Origin: Bacteroidota bacterium
GTDB taxonomy: Bacteria; Bacteroidota; Bacteroidia; Flavobacteriales; Flavobacteriaceae
Assembly (NCBI GenBank): GCA_949487855.1
Contig: CATAMV010000049.1
Coordinates: forward strand, 1 to 39,527
Direction of reading: 5' to 3'
Length of the DNA: 39,527 nt
Below, piece after piece: positions 9,067 through 9,307 of this stretch. The notes beneath the pieces are model-generated. The model was not told where the DNA came from and did no database searches. It saw nothing but the letters and a program-made list of their open reading frames with translations. Positions within the stretch are counted from its first letter, which is position 1, and each line of letters begins with the position of its first letter. A program made the translations under genes and the position numbers.

Positions 9067-9073
9067 GATTGCG

Positions 9074-9147
9074 TGACCCAGGGAGGATTCGAACCCCCAA
9101 CCCTCAGAGCCGAAATCTGATATTCTATCCAGTTGAACTACTGGGCC
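9074..9147 (-). tRNA. tRNA-Arg (anticodon UCG)
   Basis: 74 bases that fold into a standard cloverleaf. The acceptor GGCCCAG pairs with CTGGGTC (one G-U), with discriminator A. The D-arm is GTTC/GAAT. The anticodon stem TCAGA/TCTGA encloses TTTCGGC, so the anticodon is UCG for CGA and other CGN codons. The T-stem is GGGGG/CCTCC around TTCGAAT. CCA is not encoded. It lies downstream of the division cluster on the same strand and is followed at once by a strong terminator. Thirty-eight bases of its 5' half recur upstream, split, at 9205-9274. Confidence 0.95.
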
Positions 9148-9204
9148 GTTTACTAATTAATTCAAGCAAATATATAACGGTAATGGCCGTAAACAAAAGG
9201 AATA

Positions 9205-9274
9205 CCGAAATCTGATATTCCCCGCCCGTACCGAACGATACGTTCGGGCGGGTATCCAGTTGAACTACTGGGCC
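9205..9274 (-). pseudogene. Split duplicate of the tRNA-Arg 5' half
   Basis: Bases 9253-9274 and 9205-9220 together reproduce, without mismatch, the first 38 bases of the tRNA (9147-9110), from the acceptor through the anticodon. Between them lies the 32-base palindrome 9221-9252, exactly between D-loop and D-stem. The 3' half is absent, so this cannot make a tRNA. It lies 34 bases after the yqeY stop. A transcript leaving the division cluster would pass through it before the intact tRNA. Confidence 0.9.
9221..9252. repeat. GC-rich palindromic element (REP-like) inside tRNA fragment
   Basis: 32 bases framed by CCCGCCC and GGGCGGG. The inner GAACG-ATA-CGTTC extends the hairpin after a five-base bulge (GTACC). 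It is far richer in G and C than its surroundings. The interruption is precise: removing it restores the tRNA sequence exactly, with no target duplication. It looks like a small mobile palindromic unit. It could also act as a 3' hairpin for the transcript ending after yqeY. Confidence 0.75.
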
Positions 9275-9307
9275 ATTTAAAGGAAAAAATACGATTTTAA
9301 AAACGTG

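Follow-up and report, generated by a model that had tools for sequence, protein, structure and literature searches.

The window analyzed here, the whole 39,527-nucleotide stretch of a contig from a draft Flavobacteriaceae genome, carries a division cluster with ftsZ and ftsA (Pfam). Behind yqeY in this cluster lies an unusual arrangement around a tRNA gene. Read 5′ to 3′ on the minus strand, nucleotides (nt) 1 to 22 of tRNA-Arg are followed by a 32-bp palindrome, tRNA nt 23 to 38, a 57-nt spacer, and finally an intact tRNA-Arg(tcg) gene (Table 1).

Table 1. Features of the tRNA-Arg locus in window coordinates
Feature	Position	Strand	Support
Displaced tRNA-Arg(tcg) nt 1-22	9253..9274	-	22/22 identity to intact gene
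32-bp palindrome between tRNA nt 22 and 23	9221..9252	-	
Displaced tRNA-Arg nt 23-38, ending in anticodon loop	9205..9220	-	16/16 identity
57-nt AT-rich spacer, where other units hold a GIY-YIG ORF	9148..9204	-	
Intact tRNA-Arg(tcg)	9073..9147	-	ARAGORN; Rfam RF00005, 61.3 bits
Whole 127-bp insertion, one among several equivalent placements	9148..9274	-	Empty sites in sisters

The displaced copy matches the intact gene at all 38 of its bases, as an earlier note on this DNA had recorded for the split 5′ half, and the match ends at nt 38. The cut falls after nt 22, where the D-loop ends and the 3′ strand of the D-stem begins, exactly where that note had placed it; the 58-base distance that it gave to the intact tRNA is corrected here to 57 nt (9204-9148). 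The palindrome has 8 perfect terminal base pairs and an imperfect interior, and no other 32-mer in the window has at least eight perfectly complementary terminal base pairs. With a GC content of 0.72 (0.39 for the window) and a fold of −18.3 kcal/mol, equaled in stability by 2 of 200 shuffles, it is indeed a GC-rich hairpin.

We then compared the yqeY-tRNA-Arg interval within a genus set of 17 genomes, 16 of which, counting the window genome, contained a yqeY match. In 12 of the 15 sisters (loci L016, L018 to L022, and L024 to L029), an intact tRNA-Arg follows yqeY after about 35 nt, and neither the half nor the palindrome is present. Two further sisters (L017 and L023) have a different sequence behind yqeY, with tRNA-Arg farther along, and L030 is truncated by a contig end at this locus. 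The insertion was found solely in the window genome among the 13 syntenic sites compared and, judged from the 12 sisters with an empty site, is recent, as the earlier note had supposed. The size difference from the sisters is 127 bp, which can be written as the palindrome, tRNA nt 23 to 38, the spacer, and tRNA nt 1 to 22. With its position set at the nt 22/23 boundary, the insertion delivers nt 1 to 22 of the intact tRNA-Arg, and these nucleotides form a tRNA-restoring identity block at both ends of the insertion. No simple target-site duplication was present, in line with the entry without one that had been proposed, and the spacer sequence had no match in the 16 sister genomes. An assembly artefact might be suspected in a draft genome of 129 contigs and 89.97% completeness; however, the feature is interior to a 39.5-kb contig and the same anatomy occurs in many independent genomes, isolates included, and we give this explanation virtually no credence.

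Flavobacterial sigma-A promoters have a TTG element. The spacer contains TTG-N19-TATATTTG, a match to a promoter of this type that ends 19 nt before the intact tRNA. In the available text of PMC9723704, TAnnTTTG is given as the −7 box of these promoters. Allowing N17-21, we counted 5 instances of the full promoter pattern over the two strands of the 39.5-kb window; when the spacer was mono-shuffled, 0.45% of the shuffles contained it (frequency 0.0045). The pattern was chosen post hoc. At the old promoter position (window 9284-9291), 9 of the 12 sisters have TATTTTTG and 3 have TATTTTTA, while the window has TATTTTTTC. We infer that the old tRNA-Arg promoter was replaced by the inserted one, and the window copy would now give the tRNA its own promoter. 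The old box at window 9284-9291 seems altered, as though dispensable.

The window layout is not a product of chance, as it recurs at other tRNAs in other genomes. The same palindrome, in the same position and order, was found at tRNA-Ala, tRNA-Arg, and tRNA-Val with an ORF for a GIY-YIG protein behind it. Downstream of such tRNA-associated copies lies a GIY-YIG ORF of about 80 to 85 codons, and beyond it an intact tRNA whose type matches that of the displaced half; PF01541 (GIY-YIG) was recognized in 5 of 5 representative proteins. We examined the best 80 of 429 relatives in named genomes, that is, the top-scoring proteins. A tRNA on the same strand was located within 700 nt downstream in 74 of the 80, starting 190 to 250 nt past the ORF start in 62 of these 74; in 3 others the tRNA ends 45 to 65 nt before the ORF, and 3 of the 80 loci had no tRNA nearby. 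In 73 of 77 loci, a displaced piece of tRNA was interrupted by an insert of 14 to 75 nt, and in 4 no such split was detected; far control regions from the same loci had split fragments in 6 of 282 cases. Where the split lay upstream of the ORF (71 cases), the tRNA was broken at nt 21 to 23 in 35, at nt 7 to 11 in 31, and elsewhere in 5, counting the single break per fragment that the program reports even where two exist. At least 5 perfect terminal base pairs were found in 47 of the 73 inserts (4.2% of shuffles) and fewer than 5 in 26, and arms resembling CCCGCCCG and CGGGCGGG were both present in 51 of the 73 (at most 2 mismatches each).

The nuclease ORF and the restored tRNA usually overlap. 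In 58 of 74 units, the stop codon lies within the restored tRNA, with the ORF ending at nt 10 in 29 and at nt 23 in 24, and thus the final residues of the nuclease are encoded by the tRNA's own 5′ end. With dN/dS values of 0.06 to 0.16 (14 pairs), the ORF is under purifying selection. In some units, L115, L120, and L155 among them, it is interrupted by stops, as with decaying selfish genes. A search of 199 genomes detected a nuclease match in 67; at the best-match loci of 30 family genomes, which are partly the same places, a GIY motif was parsed in 24, and 22 of these had a tRNA. Within the genus, 6 of 17 genomes had nuclease matches, the empty-site comparison covering the window's tRNA-Arg only. 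The window genome itself contains one open-ORF unit, at tRNA-Ala, whose palindrome differs from that of the window by 2 bases.

The window copy differs from these fuller units in having no nuclease gene: only 57 nt separate the displaced half from the tRNA, so the copy is not itself a free-standing nuclease gene. Units that lack an ORF also occur elsewhere, measuring 118 to 120 bp at tRNA-Gly (3 loci) and 91 bp at tRNA-Met (1 locus), against 127 bp in the window. We conclude that the window feature is probably a copy, ORF-less and either internally deleted or non-autonomous, of a minimal element that invades tRNA genes. No remnant of an ORF was seen in the 57-nt spacer, so an ORF-bearing ancestor at this site is hypothetical. 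A group I intron with a homing endonuclease was rejected as a candidate; one of the 5 representative proteins weakly matched a group I intron endonuclease model in NCBIfam, and Rfam at gathering thresholds returned only tRNAs, and no intron RNA, in the window and in 20 related loci.

Integrative elements at tRNA genes usually duplicate the 3′ end. A leftover att site of such an element, or of a prophage targeting the tRNA gene, would also account for a short block of tRNA identity at both ends and for a rebuilt tRNA. Here, however, the duplicated part is the 5′ end, the related full units of about 310 bp have the GIY-YIG ORF as their only content, and no site-specific recombinase fits a 127-bp unit. 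A pattern scan of viral contigs recovered only 6 weak relatives of the nuclease (30 to 40% identity). An att-site origin is accordingly very improbable. Because the scan was based on short peptide patterns, its outcome weakens a phage vector for the element but does not exclude one.

The palindrome is not confined to the window. Searching 397 Flavobacteriaceae genomes with a degenerate pattern (at most 2 mismatches), we found near-copies in 29 genomes, with up to 21 copies per genome; a reversed control pattern had no match in the same 397 genomes. Among the loci listed, there are at least 83 distinct copies. Some of them, as in the window, sit inside broken tRNA 5′ halves, with a GIY-YIG ORF often coming next and an intact tRNA after it. 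A motif rule, applied to the 78 distinct contexts whose flanks were complete, classed 20 as tRNA-like and 58 as lying elsewhere; the rule is rough, as L045, visibly a broken tRNA-Ala, was placed in the group of 58, and L067 and L078, both in the group of 20, are likely false positives. A GIY-YIG motif was located within 700 nt in 12 of the 20 tRNA-like contexts. L138 (Flavobacteriaceae), L158 (Scalindua), and L174 (Peregrinibacteria) share one and the same palindrome, 1 base from that of the window, although the three nucleases are just 54 to 57% identical; such near identity of the palindrome across phyla suggests recognition. Nuclease matches were present in 9 of 11 palindrome-bearing genomes compared with 67 of 199 overall (P = 0.001), and in 5 of 7 (P = 0.037) after removal of the 4 genomes with copies wholly or partly in nuclease units; both values are provisional, since membership of the 199-genome set was reconstructed.

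Most of the 78 contexts are solitary palindromes outside tRNAs, and the tRNA unit alone does not account for them. One palindrome copy (L003, G029:C21, 1501-1530) lies in frame close to the beginning of a paaA-like gene (Pfam PaaA_PaaC), where it creates the peptide insertion RPNVPLGTG between MSEEQIT and VENLEAQF. Some solitary copies sit within short-period simple repeats (L052 and L080 to L084 in G199; L053, L085, L086, L090, and L092 in G378). We rejected the idea that solitary palindromes are hairpin-targeted insertions: when the palindrome was removed in silico from the 58 non-tRNA-classed sites, the joined 60-mers folded no better than shifted controls (mean −4.77 versus −4.44 for 345 controls, P = 0.25). 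When only the better-folding 40-nt flank of each site was taken, stability did exceed that of controls (mean −4.55 versus −3.33, P = 0.0019), a result that is suggestive only, as the sites are non-independent and some lie in simple repeats.

These solitary copies bear on a two-event explanation, in which ordinary recombination duplicated part of the tRNA in tandem and a palindrome with a mobility of its own (REP- or MITE-like) subsequently inserted into the dispensable half. About 58 of the 78 contexts would suit such a palindrome, as would its presence inside a coding gene, the occurrence of two different palindromes in some units, and the use of both orientations at the same tRNA position (at 35 D-loop sites, 19 one way, 10 the other, 4 with both patterns, and 2 with neither). 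Two separate events would not, however, be expected to yield breaks clustered at two positions across tRNA types and phyla, nor an insert in 73 of 77 displaced fragments with perfectly paired ends in most, and none of the 12 empty-site sisters has the half or the palindrome alone. We regard this explanation as unlikely. The earlier note had taken the palindrome for a mobile unit; the palindrome does belong to a dispersed family, but its jumping in by itself does not fit an inserted unit of 127 bp that includes tRNA nt 1 to 22 and matches a wider class with fuller, GIY-YIG ORF-bearing members. Many displaced halves (L108, L118, L130, L143, and others) have a further palindrome, unlike the first, where the D-stem starts on its 5′ side.

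Several units are mirror images of the window arrangement. In L166, L170, and L173 (the last truncated by a contig end), the intact tRNA precedes the ORF, the displaced 3′ part follows it, and the palindrome lies in the T-loop; in L188 and L199, it occupies the anticodon arm of the displaced 3′ part. Mirror-image units are also present in sisters at another tRNA, the type of which was read by eye. In L215, L216, L218, and L198, from the window genus and a relative, the anticodon arm of the displaced 3′ part of mirror-image units is replaced by a different, AT-richer palindrome. The mirror-image layout implies that the palindrome tracks the broken tRNA copy and not the leader of the ORF.

This layout also bears on whether the hairpin and the tRNA-half mimic form a selected RNA device that tunes the yqeY transcript or tRNA processing. 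Such a role would draw on the strength of the hairpin and on the position of the nuclease ORF behind such a leader in fuller units, 25 of 71 of which have a promoter-like TAnnTTTG box within 70 nt upstream of the displaced half (49 such boxes occur on both strands of the 39.5-kb window). However, the feature is present at only 1 of 13 syntenic sites, that of the window genome, and the mirror-image palindromes lie downstream of the ORF, making an RNA device highly unlikely. The earlier note's suggestion that the feature marks the end of the operon or affects processing likewise found no support, the spacer containing instead a promoter match. In at least some units, the old tRNA promoter may drive the half, the nuclease, and the tRNA jointly.

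Tandem arrays with a period of 300 to 370 bp were also found. The largest listed comprises 8 copies in one contig; at G212:C34:6988-9769, eight GIY-YIG matches form one run with a spacing of mostly about 365 bp. The hosts are mainly Flavobacteriaceae but extend to Planctomycetota (three tRNA-Val units), Peregrinibacteria and other candidate phyla, Ignavibacteriota, and Fidelibacterota; many are metagenome bins, and isolates are also included. On a weakly resolved tree of the nuclease (76 of the 80 rows, 4 short or broken ORFs having been dropped), 23 changes of tRNA type were needed compared with a shuffled mean of 42, suggesting that tRNA types are inherited yet frequently switched.

The closest parallel that we found is with the free-standing GIY-YIG homing endonucleases of T-even phages, such as SegB (available text of PMC2988022 and PMC13096335). 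According to the portions of PMC13096335 at hand, SegB cuts tRNA-bearing DNA and drives tandem amplification, which is attributed there to recombination via microhomology that the 5′ end of the tRNA shares with the 3′ end of the SegB gene. As far as these texts describe, both systems pair a small GIY-YIG nuclease with an adjoining tRNA gene, and tandem arrays and an ORF ending in the tRNA occur in the bacterial units too. The bacterial class has the GIY-YIG domain and, at the tRNA-Arg site of the window, a clean presence/absence pattern, and the window copy has no nuclease gene. Unlike SegB as presented in those portions, the bacterial units sit in chromosomes, their ORF usually ends within the tRNA, the nuclease is a single domain of about 80 residues, and a displaced tRNA piece has a palindrome at its break; the few, weak viral relatives set the bacterial nuclease apart as well.

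RAYT proteins use Y1 transposase chemistry. The REP/RAYT system (the subject of PMC3733652 and PMC8049555) shares with the tRNA units short dispersed palindromes, a linked enzyme gene, and many solitary copies, but here the linked gene encodes a GIY-YIG protein rather than a Y1 transposase, the gene-bearing sites are tRNA genes, and the palindrome breaks tRNA arms. Mitochondrial hairpin elements, including the Allomyces double-hairpin elements, likewise show signs of mobility and a patchy distribution among close relatives; they are organellar, and the available portion of PMC2800124 mentions no endonuclease and describes no restored tRNA. Homing-endonuclease insertions in rRNA genes of CPR bacteria resemble the present units, from what the accessible text of PMC11270868 reports, as nuclease-linked insertions in an essential bacterial RNA gene, except that the gene is rRNA there and tRNA here. 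Integrase-type elements at tRNA genes share the tRNA-restoring identity block, but a recombinase is absent from the 127-bp insertion and from the units of about 310 bp. Literature searches, which covered few subscription papers and no bioRxiv preprints, brought up no account of palindrome-bearing GIY-YIG units that split a tRNA; the available text of a 2006 GIY-YIG survey (PMC1564403) mentions tRNA 3 times, unrelated to such units, and palindromes 0 times.

Starting from the observed anatomy, empty sites, and recurrence at many tRNAs, we propose how a tRNA-invading element may move, by analogy with phage SegB. A full unit consists of the palindrome, the tRNA piece downstream of the break, the GIY-YIG ORF, and tRNA nt 1 to 22, and would enter a tRNA gene at the edge of a stem and a loop, most often the 3′ edge of the D-loop. 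As the last 22 nt of the unit equal the tRNA 5′ end, the tRNA gene would be rebuilt, and its old 5′ end, capped by the palindrome, would be left upstream. Entry may follow cleavage by the nuclease within or close to the tRNA gene, the break being repaired via short tRNA repeats from an element-bearing copy; alternatively, a circular form that recombined once through the 22-nt repeat would produce this order as well. Since the target is rebuilt, tandem units could accumulate by repeated entry or unequal exchange. The palindrome might be a substrate of the nuclease or a block on the dead copy, and the window copy could have arisen in trans or shed its ORF once inserted. The system would thus putatively work like a free-standing homing element, with the complication that a nuclease acting on tRNA genes should still find its target in the rebuilt one, a poor fit to classical homing.

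A broader reading, which we put forward tentatively and hold to be possible rather than probable, is that the nuclease and the conserved 32-bp palindrome constitute a minimal bacterial mobile system, analogous to REP/RAYT but with another enzyme at its core. The nuclease would recognize hairpin loops (the D-, anticodon, and T-arms of tRNA and the palindrome itself), mobilize palindromes and ORF-less units in trans, and install its own gene in tRNAs while carrying the tRNA end that rebuilds them; as a combination, these activities are offered with the same reserve.

Taken together, our results point to a compact and widespread class of selfish DNA in essential tRNA genes that the searches made did not find described, and the element is seemingly tolerated because the displaced tRNA end is given back. 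This class offers a way to test how a nuclease of about 80 residues moves from one tRNA type or phylum to another, whether hairpins are among its substrates, and what gave rise to many of the dispersed palindromes in bacteria. Where the ORF ends in the tRNA, synthesis of the nuclease should be coupled to tRNA maturation, and trimming of the tRNA 5′ end should take away the stop codon of the ORF.
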